Below are positions 4,001-12,007 of a DNA stretch of 26,313 bases, piece after piece. The translations under genes and the position numbers were made by a program. The notes beneath the pieces are model-generated. The model did not search any database, had not been told where the DNA came from, and worked only from the letters and a program-made list of their open reading frames with translations. Origin of the DNA: Stramenopiles sp. TOSAG23-2 (lineage: Eukaryota; Sar); assembly GCA_900128395.1 (NCBI GenBank), contig LT649437.1, forward strand, positions 1 to 26,313. The letters run 5' to 3'. The stretch's first letter is position 1. Every line of letters begins with the position of its first letter.

Positions 4001-4110
4001 GATATTTGTTATAATATAATGTATATATATATATATGTTGCTTTGTTTACTTATTGTATAGTAATAATTATAATTATTATGTTCGTATTTTCTGTTGTGA
4101 TCCTTATACA
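4001..4110. promoter_or_regulatory. Short divergent intergenic region (bidirectional promoter)
   Basis: Only 110 bp separate the ATG of the minus-strand EF-hand gene (4000) from the ATG of the plus-strand TRPV-like gene (4111). It is AT-rich, with a (TA)n run at about 4020-4036 that could act as a TATA-type element. It must contain the 5' UTRs and core promoters of both genes. The promoter role is inferred from layout alone. Confidence 0.5.
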
Positions 4111-5808
4111 ATGGCACCACGGAAACCTGCATCGAGCAAGGTGAAAAGAGGAAGAAGAAGAAGGAGTAGCCGCGTTGCAAAAAAAGATAAAAAATTAAAT
4201 GATGATGAACAATTCGCCTCGAAGACAAATAATGATAATGATATACTTGCTGATGAGGAGCTATCTTTTTTCAATAAAACCGTTCGTGCTTTGTCACCAC
4301 GTTCAATTAGTAAACGTTTGCGTTCCATCTCTCCATTATTTTCAAGTAGTGGTAGAGTAAATCGAGCTGAATCAGCATTAGATAATGTTGAAAAGCAAAC
4401 TGAACAATTCAACACGGAAGATACGTTTTGGTATGCAGTGAAATTTGGACAACGTGATAATTTAATGAATTTTATTGAAGGAGATAAAGATTGTTTACCG
4501 AAAGAAAAGCGTGTCGAAGCTAATGAAACTTGCTTAGAAGAGCGCGATCCAGTAGGCGCAACTCCGTTGCATTTACTTTGCCTTTTTGGCCATACTTCAC
4601 TTGCAATGGAAATCATATCAAAGTACCCTGAACGTGGATTAGATATGTATGATTTAAAACAATCAAAACAAAATGATGATAATGATGATAATACTGAGAA
4701 CAACAAAAAACCAACTTTATCACCTTATCATGGAGAAAATTGTTTGCATATAGCAATTGTAAAACATGATATGGAATTAGTCAAATGTTTAGTTGAGAAT
4801 TGCGGTGAAGAATTGTTTAAACAGGAAACTATTGGTTCTTTTTTTTTACCTTCCGCGAATGATGCTTTTGACAATAATGATAATAACGATCATGACGATA
4901 AAACAGTTTATTTTGGTGGCTTTCCATTAAGTTTTGCAGTTGCTTCCAATCAACCAGAAATCGTAAAATATTTGATAAACGAAGGTGCTGATATTACAGC
5001 AAAAGATTCTAGTACATACGCATTTGGCAATACAGCTATGCATATATCAATCTTATACGAATTACCAGAGATGTACGATTTGTTGTTGGAATTATGGCAG
5101 GAAAATAATATTCCAGGTGAATTCAGTTCACAATTAAATAAATATCAACAAAGTGCATTGACCTACTCTGCTGCAATTGCTAAAAGTGGTAAAATGTTTC
5201 GACATATATTACACAAGCAAAAAGTAGTGCAATGGAATTATGGTCCAGTCACATGCGTAGCATATCCTTTGAAAGAACTCGATGTCATGCAATTTAAACC
5301 CGGTGATAGAAAAGGATGCTTGGAATATTTTGTAGAAAATGAACATTTTGATTTAATATCGGATAAACTTGTATTGAATTTAATTGATAAGAAATGGAAA
5401 TGCTTTGCAGAGGAAGAATTTAATTTACGATTTTGGCGAACGACAGCATTTATTTGCTCCATTTTTTTGGTTAGTATGTTGCCTCGTATGGAAGAAAGTA
5501 TAGACAACAACACAACACTTTCTTTTAATTCTTTTTTTCAAATATGGAGCAATGGCTCCATTAGTAATTATGTAAAATGTAGATATATATTTGAAATTCT
5601 TGCAGTTTTACTAGCCTTTTATAAATCCCTTGAAGAATTGAAAGAAATGCATTTTCATGGCGTTTTGCAACATTTCACCGCGCAAGGAGCTGCTGTTTTT
5701 GAGAATGTTGCAAGTGCATTTTGCATTGTGACTGTATTTGCACTCTTTATTTTCCGCGTTTTTTTAATATTGAAGCTCATGAAGAAGATGCAATATTGGC
5801 AAGTTTAA
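4111..5808 (+). CDS. TRPV-like cation channel, N-terminal frame (ankyrin repeats to S3)
   Basis: I chose the ATG at 4111; the frame extends 19 codons further upstream but without homology. The first 40 residues are very basic. Ankyrin repeats span about residues 146-395 and carry TRPV signatures: GENCLHIAI, then YFGGFPLSFAVASNQ, then NTAMH, and later WNYGPV followed by a hydrophobic turn. The pre-S1 segment (LIDKKWKCF) leads to S1 (about 440-458), S2 (about 493-510) and S3 (about 530-551). TRPV channels are tetrameric, calcium-permeable plasma-membrane or ciliary cation channels. At 5759-5765 (seven T) this frame ceases to match the family, and the homology continues in the -1 frame to 6143. 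The last 14 or so residues here are therefore out of frame. Family assignment is confident; the true gene end is not. Confidence 0.85.
   Translation: MAPRKPASSKVKRGRRRRSSRVAKKDKKLNDDEQFASKTNNDNDILADEELSFFNKTVRALSPRSISKRLRSISPLFSSSGRVNRAESALDNVEKQTEQFNTEDTFWYAVKFGQRDNLMNFIEGDKDCLPKEKRVEANETCLEERDPVGATPLHLLCLFGHTSLAMEIISKYPERGLDMYDLKQSKQNDDNDDNTENNKKPTLSPYHGENCLHIAIVKHDMELVKCLVENCGEELFKQETIGSFFLPSANDAFDNNDNNDHDDKTVYFGGFPLSFAVASNQPEIVKYLINEGADITAKDSSTYAFGNTAMHISILYELPEMYDLLLELWQENNIPGEFSSQLNKYQQSALTYSAAIAKSGKMFRHILHKQKVVQWNYGPVTCVAYPLKELDVMQFKPGDRKGCLEYFVENEHFDLISDKLVLNLIDKKWKCFAEEEFNLRFWRTTAFICSIFLVSMLPRMEESIDNNTTLSFNSFFQIWSNGSISNYVKCRYIFEILAVLLAFYKSLEELKEMHFHGVLQHFTAQGAAVFENVASAFCIVTVFALFIFRVFLILKLMKKMQYWQV
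5759..5768 (+). other. Frame switch at a T7 run forming a U UUU UUA slippery heptamer
   Basis: In the upstream frame the codons read gtT TTT TTA, giving the heptamer TTTTTTA in the X XXY YYZ phase used for -1 ribosomal frameshifting. A -1 slip leads directly into the conserved S4-S5 frame (next codons Asn-Ile-Glu). A 7-bp inverted repeat, AATATTG / CAATATT, follows with an 18-nt loop and no spacer, which is closer than usual for a stimulatory structure. A single missing T in the homopolymer explains the same data more simply. Confidence 0.6.
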
Positions 5809-6143
5809 ATATTGCAGCATGGATTAATTTGTTATGGTTTTTTGTTGGAATGTCTCCCGATATTGGTATCTTTGTTATTATATTGCATAAGATGATAATA
5901 TCAGATTTAAAAACATTTTCATTGATATCATTTGTTTTTTTAGGTGGATTTTCCACTGCATTTCATTTACTTGGGGAAGAAGAAGGTATTGGTAGCTTGG
6001 GTGCACAAGTTGTTGATATGATGGCAAATATATTAGGTGATTTCGATATTTCATCGTATAGTAGCAAACGATACCCACATGTTGCCACTGGCTTAGCGTT
6101 GCTATATATATTCTTGTTACGGTACATACGAGTATCATATTAA
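5766..6143 (+). CDS. TRPV-like cation channel, C-terminal part in -1 frame (S4 to truncated S6)
   Basis: This is the continuation of the channel begun at 4111, read in the -1 frame from about 5766 for some 125 codons. It supplies S4, the S4-S5 linker and S5 (around HKMIISDLKTF, then FVFLGGFSTAFHLL), a pore helix with ILGDFD at the position of the TRPV filter TIGMGDL, and the start of S6. These are the most conserved parts of the channel, so the pore belongs to this gene. S6 looks incomplete: after YIFLL the frame gives a few polar residues and stops, where TRPV family members continue with a Leu/Asn-rich helix and the TRP box. The gene may be frameshifted twice, decayed or wrongly assembled. 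Confidence 0.75.
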   Translation, partial: NIEAHEEDAILASLNIAAWINLLWFFVGMSPDIGIFVIILHKMIISDLKTFSLISFVFLGGFSTAFHLLGEEEGIGSLGAQVVDMMANILGDFDISSYSSKRYPHVATGLALLYIFLLRYIRVSY

Positions 6144-9396: not shown

Positions 9397-10070
9397 TCTC
9401 TCTCTCTCTCTAGATACACATAACTTTTATATATTCTTTTTTACATATTATCGTCGATTACGCATCTTTCTATATTCACGGAAAATGAAATTTTCATATT
9501 TACTGATCAAATCACGTCCATTACTATATGCAAACCATAAGCCAAATAATGTTCCAGATAAATGTGCAGCATGCCCAATCGTCGTCCATCCCTTTATTAA
9601 TCCAACAACATCAACTGCAGATATTAAAGCAACAACTTGTTTACCACTCATTGATATCATTGGTAAAAAAATAATACTAAATGCTATATTATCATCTTGA
9701 CTCAAAATAGCTGCACATGCAAGTAATGCACCAGATGCACCTAAACCTGGCATTCCCATATGAATAGGTTTACGTATGGTATTGTAAACATTTGCACCAA
9801 AACTAGAAAATGTACCTGCGGTAACATATAATGCTAATAAATCTTCATGTGAATAATTCAATCGTGAAAGTAATATTGGACCAAAACTATACAATGCGAT
9901 TGAATTCAATGCTAAATGTGGTAATGTTGCATGTGAAAATGTAGATAACAAAAGTGCACGAGAATGTACATTGTAAATAGAAGACATAAAATTATGTTTC
10001 ATGACACCATGAAACGTTGGGATTTGATGCATACCAAATATTGCGACGTGTGAAGCTAATATTGAATTTG
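9397..10070. repeat. Left arm of large inverted repeat
   Basis: 9448-10070 is the reverse complement of 10197-10819 with one mismatch seen and no indels. Outside the stop codons, similarity continues for about 40 bp with two substitutions and two 2-bp indels. The arm then ends in a short (TC)n run at 9397-9411. The spacer between arms is 10071-10196. Confidence 0.93.
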
Positions 10071-10173
10071 TAACTGTTGTATTGTCATAAATCGGTTTAA
10101 AATACTCTTGCAAATTATTATTATTACAAAAATTATAAAATCGTCTCCACAATTTATTTGTAGTATTATCCAA
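9448..10173 (-). CDS. PARL-like mitochondrial rhomboid protease, left copy (5' end uncertain)
   Basis: Rhomboids of the PARL/Pcp1 class are intramembrane serine proteases of the mitochondrial inner membrane. Counting from the first in-frame ATG (10032; 194 codons), the catalytic Ser is residue 100 in GLGASGAL and the catalytic His is residue 157 in GHAAHLSG. LLSTFSHATLPHLALN matches the conserved L1/TM2 region. Similarity to PARL continues upstream of that Met (TVTNSILASHVAIFGMHQIP), so the real protein started further up. The open frame runs to 10239 but contains no ATG, and the codon at 10173 is TTG. The N-terminus, which should hold the targeting peptide, appears to have been cut off where the inverted duplication begins at 10197. 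A spliced upstream exon is possible but not visible. Confidence 0.75.
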   Translation of the reverse strand: MDNTTNKLWRRFYNFCNNNNLQEYFKPIYDNTTVTNSILASHVAIFGMHQIPTFHGVMKHNFMSSIYNVHSRALLLSTFSHATLPHLALNSIALYSFGPILLSRLNYSHEDLLALYVTAGTFSSFGANVYNTIRKPIHMGMPGLGASGALLACAAILSQDDNIAFSIIFLPMISMSGKQVVALISAVDVVGLIKGWTTIGHAAHLSGTLFGLWFAYSNGRDLISKYENFIFREYRKMRNRR

Positions 10174-10234
10174 TTTTTCACTTTTTACAACAGCTGCAAA
10201 TTCAATATTAGCTTCACACGTCGCAATATTTGGT

Positions 10235-10819
10235 ATGCATCAAATCCCAACGTTTCATGGTGTCATGAAACATAATTTTATGTCTTCTATTTACAATGTA
10301 CATTCTCGTGCACTTTTGTTATCTACATTTTCACATGCAACATTACCACATTTAGCATTGAATTCAATCGCATTGTATAGTTTTGGTCCAATATTACTTT
10401 CACGATTGAATTATTCACATGAAGATTTATTAGCATTATATGTTACCGCAGGTACATTTTCTAGTTTTGGTGCAAATGTTTACAATACCATACGTAAACC
10501 TATTCATATGGGAATGCCAGGTTTAGGTGCATCTGGTGCATTACTTGCATGTGCAGCTATTTTGAGTCAAGATGATAATATAGCATTTAGTATTATTTTT
10601 TTACCAATGATATCAATGAGTGGTAAACAAGTTGTTGCTTTAATATCTGCAGTTGATGTTGTTGGATTAATAAAGGGATGGACGACGATTGGGCATGCTG
10701 CACATTTATCTGGAACATTATTTGGCTTATGGTTTGCATATAGTAATGGACGTGATTTGATCAGTAAATATGAAAATTTTATTTTCCGTGAATATAGAAA
10801 GATGCGTAATCGACGATAA
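10235..10819 (+). CDS. PARL-like rhomboid protease, right copy (inverted duplicate)
   Basis: Its 194 codons give a protein identical to the last 194 residues of the left copy, with catalytic Ser100 (GASGA) and His157 (AAHLSG). I see one nucleotide difference in the coding arm: a synonymous Phe codon, TTT here and TTC in the left copy, near the C-terminus. The open frame extends upstream to about 10139 without an ATG, and its residues before ANSILAS are unrelated to the left copy. The copy therefore lacks the conserved TVTNS segment and everything before it. As written it would begin inside the first membrane segment and is probably not a functional protease unless spliced to another exon. Confidence 0.7.
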   Translation: MHQIPTFHGVMKHNFMSSIYNVHSRALLLSTFSHATLPHLALNSIALYSFGPILLSRLNYSHEDLLALYVTAGTFSSFGANVYNTIRKPIHMGMPGLGASGALLACAAILSQDDNIAFSIIFLPMISMSGKQVVALISAVDVVGLIKGWTTIGHAAHLSGTLFGLWFAYSNGRDLISKYENFIFREYRKMRNRR

Positions 10820-10850
10820 TATATAAAAGAATATAAAAGTTATGCGTATC

Positions 10851-11161: not shown

Positions 11162-11301
11162 AAACAAAGTAACTTATGCACATACAAAAGATAAAAAAAG
11201 AAACCTTCCGATGCCGGGATTTGAATGTGGGTTTCCTGTGTGAAAGGCAGAAATGCTGACCAACTACATTGGATGTTGTTAAAAGATGCTTCACTTCTTG
11301 A
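11162..11301. repeat. Direct repeat A: duplicated tRNA-Glu locus, decayed copy
   Basis: It shares its 3' flank (AAACAAAGTAACTT, then a near-identical stretch of about 30 bp), the tRNA body and part of the 5' flank (TGTTGT, AGATGCTT, ACTTCTT) with 11387-11601. The copies differ by point changes, a 5-nt deletion in the D arm and absence of the 74-nt insert. Confidence 0.85.
11207..11273 (-). pseudogene. tRNA-Glu(TTC) pseudogene without insert
   Basis: This 67-nt relative of the tRNA at 11432-11577 keeps the 3' acceptor strand CATCGGA and an anticodon loop with TTC. Five nucleotides are missing from the D-arm region, so the D stem cannot form. The acceptor strand has TCCAATG for TCCGATG, the last pair of the anticodon stem is C-A, and three of five T-stem pairs are lost (CCACA against CCCGG). 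Each CpG of the intact copy that I can align, outside the retained 3' acceptor strand and T stem, has become CpA or been lost. A seven-T Pol III terminator remains downstream. It carries no insert in the T loop. It is almost certainly non-functional. Confidence 0.85.
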
Positions 11302-11431
11302 AGCAATAAAAAAATAACTCTGTAGAATAATTTAAATTGTCAAATCTTTTTCCACTGCAAAAACATTGTTATAACACTTACAATTCAAACAAAGTAACTT
11401 ATTCACATACAAAAGATAAAAAAAGAAACCT

Positions 11432-11577
11432 TCCGATGCCGGGATCTATATATATTTATTTTATGATTTATTGTTAGAAAGAATATTTTTCATTTTTTTT
11501 GTTTGTTTTGTGTACATACTCGAACCCGGGTTTCCTGCGTGAAAGGCAGAAATGCTGACCAACTACACTACATCGGA
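11432..11577 (-). tRNA. tRNA-Glu(TTC) interrupted in the T loop
   Basis: Joining 11577-11520 (58 nt) to 11445-11432 (14 nt) gives a complete 72-nt tRNA. The acceptor stem TCCGATG/CATCGGA has seven perfect pairs. The D stem is GTGT/GCAT with G-T pairs. The anticodon stem is TCTGC/GCAGG around the loop CTTTCAC with anticodon TTC. The T stem CCGGG/CCCGG is perfect, around TTCGAAT. The A box (TAGTGTAGTTGG) is intact. A run of seven T about eight nucleotides past the 3' end is a Pol III terminator. The B box GGTTCGA|ATCC is split after nucleotide 58 by a 74-nt insert. The insert's first bases (GT) keep the B-box consensus for nine of eleven positions, so Pol III could perhaps still bind. Without removal of the insert the tRNA cannot fold normally. 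Confidence 0.85.
11446..11519 (-). other. Intron-like insert (74 nt, GT-AG) in tRNA-Glu T loop, position 58/59
   Basis: Read on the tRNA strand, the insert begins GTATGT, has TTTCTAACAAT with a CTAAC branch-point-like core whose A lies 28 nt before the end, and ends TATATATAG. It is about 16% GC. Exact removal restores TTCGAATCC, the universal T-loop/B-box sequence, and the paralogous copy at 11207-11273 aligns without it. Nuclear tRNA introns are normally at 37/38 and removed by the tRNA endonuclease, without GT-AG rules. Position 58/59 is unusual. Ectopic tRNA introns are known in some archaea, in Cyanidioschyzon and in nucleomorphs, where a bulge-helix-bulge guides cleavage. Weak pairing of GTATGTA with the TATATAT end is possible, so that mechanism is not excluded. 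Confidence 0.7.
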
Positions 11578-11601: not shown

Positions 11602-12007
11602 TGAGAAATGTGAAAAAAATAGTATATATACAAATAAAAAATTTTCTTCCGAGTTAGAAATAGGGTTCTCACCTTCGAGAAGTTTTTCCGTGATGCTATT
11701 CCTATACTAACTTTTCAAAACAAACGAACACCAAACACAACCACACAAAACTGAAGAATGATGCCGGGCACACAATACCATATCAACAACCAACAATCAT
11801 ATTATTATAATGCACTAATCATCAAAAAAACTCGCAAAAAAAATAATCGAACACTTCACATACACATAGTCACAGTCTACTACACACAATCATCTCTCTG
11901 TCTGTCTGTCTCTTTCTATCTATCTATCTACATACACATAACGTTGTATCAATTTGGATAATTTTGAAAACATAAAACAGACACATTAAAACCAACAAAT
12001 AACAACA
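11602..12007. promoter_or_regulatory. 5' region of the Hsp70-TPR gene with candidate heat-shock element
   Basis: No gene is recognised here. At 11674-11686 the sequence TTC-GA-GAA-GT-TTT gives two perfect heat-shock units and one imperfect third unit, about 320 bp before the ATG at 12008. A short CTGT/CTAT microsatellite lies at about 11898-11932. The 20 bases before the ATG are A-rich (ACCAACAAATAACAACA), like the A-rich leader before 21165. The heat-shock role is inferred from the motif and the chaperone-like product. Confidence 0.4.

Follow-up and report, generated by a model that had tools for sequence, protein, structure and literature searches.

RESULTS

A tRNA-Glu(TTC) gene interrupted in its T loop

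The window analysed here comprises positions 1-26,313 of contig LT649437.1 of Stramenopiles sp. TOSAG23-2. On its minus strand, at 11577-11431, it carries a tRNA-Glu(TTC) gene whose T loop is interrupted between positions 58 and 59 by a 74-nt insert. The initial annotation had placed this insert at 11446-11519, with GTATGT at its 5′ end, an internal CTAAC and TAG at its 3′ end, and both the coordinates and the motifs were borne out (Table 1). Removal of the insert leaves a tRNA of 72 nt plus the discriminator A, in which the acceptor stem (7/7 pairs), D stem (4/4), anticodon stem (5/5) and T stem (5/5) are all paired when G-U is counted as a pair. ARAGORN called tRNA-Glu(ttc) for the spliced sequence and made no call for the unspliced one, in agreement with the earlier statement that excision yields a fully paired tRNA. 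In the raw window, ARAGORN made no call at all and no Rfam family reached threshold. An excision scan run without any splice-signal rule gave three tied best cut pairs differing by one-base shifts, one of which is GTATGT...TAG. The T-run terminator that had been suggested is present as seven consecutive T residues beginning 6 bases beyond the discriminator. The A and B boxes that had also been assigned to the gene stand for the spliced form only; in the DNA the B box is split.

Table 1. Coordinates of the tRNA-Glu(TTC) gene features in the window, and insert positions of six further interrupted tRNA genes of the same assembly
Feature	Location	Strand	Details
tRNA-Glu(TTC) exon 1	11520..11577	-	nucleotides 1-58
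tRNA-Glu insert, probable spliceosomal-type intron	11446..11519	-	74 nt, between tRNA positions 58 and 59
5′ splice site of the insert	11514..11519	-	GTATGT
Branch-point motif of the insert	11473..11477	-	CTAAC; branch A to 3′ end, 28 nt
3′ splice site of the insert	11446..11448	-	TAG
tRNA-Glu exon 2	11431..11445	-	nucleotide 59 to end, including discriminator A (11431)
T7 run, polymerase III terminator-like	11418..11424	-	3′ of tRNA-Glu
Upstream element TATATATAC...	11603..11630	-	starts 53 nt 5′ of tRNA-Glu; common to other tRNA genes here
Decayed intronless tandem copy of tRNA-Glu	11206..11273	-	ends set by hand
tRNA-Thr-CGT	L012		one insert, 55/56
tRNA-Leu-CAA	L018		one insert, D loop, 3′ of linear nucleotide 19
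tRNA-Arg-ACG	L060		one insert, 42/43
tRNA-Arg-TCT	L016		two inserts, 8/9 and end of variable loop
tRNA-Leu-TAA	L017		two inserts, 6/7 and 38/39
Elongator tRNA-Met	L052		three inserts, 11/12, 31/32 and 47/48

The window also contains an intronless tandem copy of this gene, which forms no cloverleaf and received no ARAGORN call, and TATATA was not found in its aligned upstream stretch. Since it is the intronless copy that has decayed, the interrupted copy is the intact one that was kept. A DNA search of the assembly showed no second intact tRNA-Glu copy. The initial annotation had held that the tRNA is still used, a suggestion that gains support from the intact cloverleaf adjoining the decayed copy. 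The pair does not distinguish gain of the intron after duplication from its loss from a dead copy.

Two other features of the window were noted. An inverted repeat at 9432-10835, with two 650-nt arms that are 99% identical and separated by 104 nt, encodes a rhomboid protease on either strand and could be either real or an amplification chimera. At 5721-5808, an ankyrin-repeat gene (4054-6143) is broken by a change of frame near a T run and not by an intron.

Seven interrupted tRNA genes in the assembly

A genome search for tRNA genes restored by the removal of 60-100-nt GT-AG inserts had been proposed, and in the loci scanned it added six genes and ten inserts. In the same assembly (17.45 Mb, 793 contigs), seven tRNA genes on seven contigs are interrupted by 11 inserts of 59-80 nt; for the organism, these counts are at least what is present. 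The inserts lie in the acceptor, D, anticodon, variable and T arms, and their standard tRNA position numbers were assigned by hand. None of the 11 is at the canonical position 37/38, the nearest being the second intron of tRNA-Leu-TAA at 38/39. The three-intron solution for tRNA-Met was assembled by hand from T-stem and motif scans and then checked by ARAGORN and stem pairing.

The Rfam tRNA model, applied to 63 of the 786 candidates from a first look at the assembly, gave at least 16 matches; four of them (L012, L016, L017 and L018) are partial matches to genes later resolved as interrupted. A T-arm pattern search returned 55 places versus 45 with the reversed pattern, and each of the 55 either was included in the loci examined or was known beforehand. 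A fully paired T stem was present at 12 distinct places among the loci examined, nine of which were recognised as tRNA genes. Another pattern search gave 51 places versus 112 reversed, and scanning 30 loci from the 51 yielded no new gene. A third gave 39 rows versus 48 reversed, three known tRNA genes being recognised among the 39, and two more (five and three matches) returned known tRNA genes or half copies only.

After excision, all acceptor, anticodon and T-stem pairs are present in five of the seven genes (Glu, Thr, Leu-CAA, Arg-ACG and Arg-TCT), while Leu-TAA has an acceptor stem of 6/7 and Met an anticodon stem of 4/5. The D stem lacks one pair (3/4) in Leu-CAA, Arg-ACG and Leu-TAA and is complete (4/4) in the other four genes. 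All seven spliced sequences were called by ARAGORN with the expected anticodon, compared with none of the seven unspliced ones. When single introns were removed, no call was made for Arg-TCT or Met, whichever intron was taken out, and removal of intron 2 alone gave one weaker call for Leu-TAA.

Ten intronless tRNA genes were all called by ARAGORN (Thr-AGT, Phe, Ile, Arg-TCG, Val, Arg-CCT, Ser, Ala, Pro and Sec, the last present as two tandem copies counted as one). Interrupted genes therefore make up 7 of 17 resolved tRNA genes, and because the search favours intact genes this share is likely an underestimate.

These data bear on the possibility that the interrupted genes are dead, broken by insertions, with intact copies elsewhere serving the cell. 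In the accessible text of a review (PMC4090602), eukaryotic tRNA genes with D- or T-arm insertions are mostly presumed to be pseudogenes. The searches may also have overlooked other copies, or the assembly may lack them. Against this stand the full or nearly full pairing of seven genes with eleven inserts, the decay of the intronless and not the interrupted tRNA-Glu copy, and the outcome of the copy searches: besides the DNA search for Glu, no other intact copy for the interrupted anticodons was found among the T-arm and D-arm pattern matches, a search that copies with other arm sequences would escape. We regard death of these genes as very unlikely.

Several further observations were made near tRNA genes. 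In a tRNA-Cys-like gene (L013, 1501-1605), GT-AG excision does not restore the T arm or the 3′ half of the acceptor stem, and the gene was left out of every tRNA count. At about 260-500 of L060, exon 1 and part of the intron of tRNA-Arg(ACG) are repeated upstream as a tandem half copy. The two tandem selenocysteine tRNA genes (L014/L015, G000:C227:11215-11476) have near-identical flanks. A GCTATTCCTATG-like stretch, possibly a dispersed repeat, recurs in the upstream flanks of L012, L016, L017 and L018 and at window position 11691.

Splice signals of the inserts

All 11 inserts begin with GTA[A/C/T]GT (GTAAGT in seven, GTACGT in three, GTATGT in one), end with AG, and contain a branch motif (CTAAC in seven, TTAAC in four) whose branch A is 13-34 nt from the 3′ end. 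The branch motif played no part in picking the introns. For the four single-intron genes GT..AG was sufficient, and for the multi-intron genes a GTANG[T/A] rule was required, so the agreement among donors of the multi-intron genes arises partly by selection.

The motif scan covered 305 kb, comprising the window and 107 loci with overlaps included. The GTANG[T/A]..AG scan gave 11 solutions with scores of 23-28, including alternatives for the same genes, compared with 0, 0, 0 and 3 solutions (best score 24) for four scrambled-motif controls on the same 305 kb. A plain GT..AG dinucleotide scan gave 14 solutions, compared with 2-16 for seven control pairs; the 14 comprise four true solutions, four slips in Leu-CAA or Arg-ACG and six re-paired pieces of intact tRNA genes. 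The 23 control matches shown include 10 slips in Leu-CAA or Arg-ACG and 11 re-paired fragments from intact tRNA genes; the top score of 28 is attained by two of the GT..AA slips.

When no splice-signal rule was applied to Thr-CGT, the single best excision (of 12) was GTAAGT...TAG. Structure alone thus fixes the insert ends for Thr and, for Glu, narrows them to three one-base shifts; for Leu-CAA and Arg-ACG it does not fix the exact ends. In a random-excision control, ARAGORN called 209 of 2100 sequences overall and 8 of 900 for the three multi-intron genes; for single-intron genes this control is uninformative, as ARAGORN still makes a call when an excision of the correct length is misplaced by a few bases.

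The inserts might instead be tRNA introns of a non-canonical kind that a relaxed tRNA splicing endonuclease removes, as in Cyanidioschyzon merolae or perhaps the Guillardia theta nucleomorph, their GT-AG look being a coincidence or a matter of composition. There are precedents for such an arrangement, since tRNA genes of C. merolae have D-, anticodon- and T-arm introns, up to three per gene, as does the G. theta nucleomorph, where many lack a defined bulge-helix-bulge (BHB). The BHB check that had been recommended argues against it: the strict BHB central helix has only one or two of four pairs in all 11 inserts. Relaxed BHB helices average 3.5 versus 3.7 in shuffles. On these two tests, neither of which had a set of known BHB introns as positive control, BHB introns were rejected. 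The presence of donor, branch and acceptor motifs in 11/11 inserts also speaks against an endonuclease, and we consider this explanation unlikely.

The insert of tRNA-Glu had been read as a spliceosomal or introner-like intron, or else as a non-canonical tRNA intron. The spliceosomal reading is supported by the donor, branch and acceptor found in every insert; the introner-like one is not, the similarity among inserts being within the shuffled range. Mobile introner-like elements spreading through the genome, tRNA genes included, would fit the GT-AG ends and the one intron-present/absent pair, that within the tRNA-Glu tandem duplication. However, the best pairwise score among the eleven inserts is 39, compared with a best of 40 in 20 shuffled sets, and mRNA introns look rare in the DNA scanned. 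With no pair of the eleven inserts more similar than shuffles, an introner family was rejected, and such an origin appears highly improbable. Self-splicing group I or II introns were likewise discarded: the inserts measure 59-80 nt, their fold energies are like those of mononucleotide shuffles, and no Rfam family exceeded threshold in the window.

A shared upstream element and T runs

A TATA-type upstream element is common to interrupted and intronless tRNA genes. TATAWA occurs at -100 to -40 in 15 of 17 tRNA genes versus 19 of 85 flank stretches from the same loci; it occurs in 30% of shuffles of the same stretches, giving an overall background of 22-30%. A Gibbs search upstream of the tRNA genes found the motif TATATATAnCAAAAATTTnCAATTTT, with an information content of 23.1 bits compared with 13.8-15.3 in ten shuffled sets searched with equal effort. 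The two genes without TATAWA are Leu-CAA, in which a weaker form is present, and Arg-ACG, which sits behind its own half copy with the TATA element in front of that copy. Upstream of the U6 gene, at a distance of about 30 nt, lies a TATATATATGAAAAATGACA stretch.

Contiguous A and B boxes are absent where inserts split them: the B box in Glu and Thr, the A box in Met. The shared upstream element makes transcription despite split boxes explainable, and, as was proposed for C. merolae, it may allow these genes to be transcribed here.

A run of four or more T begins within 44 nt downstream of all 17 tRNA genes. Avoidance of terminators within the introns was also considered, the introns containing no T5 or longer run and two T4 runs versus 33 runs of A4 or longer. 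It was dismissed because same-composition shuffles average 1.5 T4 or longer runs, so that low T content suffices.

Spliceosome, mRNA introns and tRNA-splicing enzymes

A U6 snRNA gene with an ACAGAGA box is present in the assembly (82.5 bits). The PROCN domain of Prp8 had no match in the assembly in a search run without positive control, so the spliceosome is only partly shown. The tRNA endonuclease domain (PF01974) and RtcB (PF01139) were not found in the assembly, which may be incomplete; the controls matched in prokaryotes. As the Prp8 domain was likewise not found, these absences say little, and that of PF01974 counts only weakly against a relaxed endonuclease.

Introns of mRNA genes look sparse in the DNA scanned, and no clear intron was noticed in the long reading frames of the window. 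An open-frame search with GTANGT and [C/T]TAAC gave 10 candidates versus 16, 3, 15 and 12 in controls, and is thus not above background; three of the ten are tRNA loci described above. A codon-score search was too strict for use. One candidate mRNA intron (L086) has 122 nt, with GTAAGT, a CTAAC about 50 nt from its end and CAG, and is supported by a Glyoxalase domain that spans the joint. Another of 79 nt (L034; GTAAGT...CTAAC...CAG) connects two long reading frames; its Rieske and ring-hydroxylase domains both lie on the downstream side of the joint. A further locus (L096) is likely an mRNA intron. L086, L034 and probably L096 have GTAAGT, CTAAC and AG, but there are only two or three of them and they were picked with motif filters similar to those used for the tRNA inserts, so any agreement with the latter arises partly by selection.

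DISCUSSION

Judged from the DNA, the nuclear tRNA-Glu gene is most probably (at roughly 0.8) interrupted by a spliceosomal intron of the U2 type, and is one of seven tRNA genes that together carry at least 11 of them. This suggests that the spliceosome helps make tRNAs in an uncultured single-celled eukaryote, three of whose proteins match environmental sequences at 99-100%; the close homologues are mostly environmental proteins. RNA polymerase III, the enzyme that we infer, would start from the TATA-type upstream element, whereby a split A or B box would be tolerated, and would stop at the T run. The spliceosome would remove each intron by way of the GT, the branch A and the AG, either ahead of tRNA folding or while it proceeds, and the ends would be trimmed by the usual processing enzymes to give a tRNA that is presumably used.

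A wider version of this reading can be put forward tentatively. In this lineage the whole of tRNA splicing may have been handed to the spliceosome, with the endonuclease and ligase pathway lost, all nuclear tRNA introns spliceosomal, even those next to the anticodon, and external TATA promoters freeing the A and B boxes so that introns can settle anywhere. We regard this as possible and somewhat less probable than not.

Known tRNA introns are self-splicing, cut by an endonuclease or, in a nucleomorph, unexplained. If the main reading is true, spliceosomal introns in seven or more tRNA genes of one nuclear genome would add a further class. They would show that the spliceosome can handle, within a single cell, several transcripts that are short, fold strongly and probably come from polymerase III, and the extent to which splicing needs polymerase II coupling would become testable. 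Finders of tRNA genes overlook such interrupted genes, as ARAGORN did with all seven in unspliced form, so interruption may be why some tRNAs seem to be 'missing' from protist genomes.

Among the matches listed from the open literature, in the portions accessible, none reported a tRNA gene with a spliceosomal intron; subscription papers and preprints lie mostly outside that body of text. The same matches describe tRNA introns in unusual positions, either of BHB type or without explanation, as well as spliceosomal introns of U6 and U3. A 2025 intron survey (PMC11782384), in its accessible text, mentions tRNA-gene introns of the archaeal type and of group I.

In what is accessible of the reports on C. 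merolae, multi-intron tRNA genes resemble those described here in having up to three introns, in the D, anticodon and T arms, and a TATA-like upstream sequence for which TFIIIC-independent transcription was proposed (PMC9602550, PMC3978253); an upstream promoter was put forward to explain transcription of split-box tRNA genes (PMC3978253). Its tRNA-Ile(UAU) has BHB introns in the D, anticodon and T arms (PMC9602550). The C. merolae introns are BHB introns, whose removal is attributed to the tRNA endonuclease, whereas those found here have splice signals and no strict BHB.

Ectopic tRNA introns of the G. theta nucleomorph are also similar in part, as they occupy non-canonical positions, number up to three per gene and in many cases lack a defined BHB; removal of several was demonstrated by RT-PCR, its mode being given as unknown (PMC4090602, PMC3978253). 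They are 3-24 nt long, and splice signals are unmentioned in the accessible text, whereas the inserts described here are 59-80 nt long with full splice signals. The canonical introns at 37/38 share with these inserts a location in nuclear tRNA genes (PMC4090602, PMC13149111, as far as accessible) and differ from them in position and signals, the nearest case being intron 2 of Leu-TAA (38/39), which has GTAAGT, CTAAC and TAG.

Fungal U6 snRNA and U3 snoRNA genes offer the likeness of mRNA-type introns in genes for small structured RNAs (PMC8917221, PMC5832005). The accessible part of a 2017 paper singles out U3 and U6 as the sole small structured RNAs in which an intron is known to occur often, and tRNA genes are not named there (PMC5832005). 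According to the same partly accessible sources, the U6 RNA of S. pombe is a polymerase III transcript that is spliced by the spliceosome (PMC8917221, PMC5832005), the combination that is proposed here for tRNAs.
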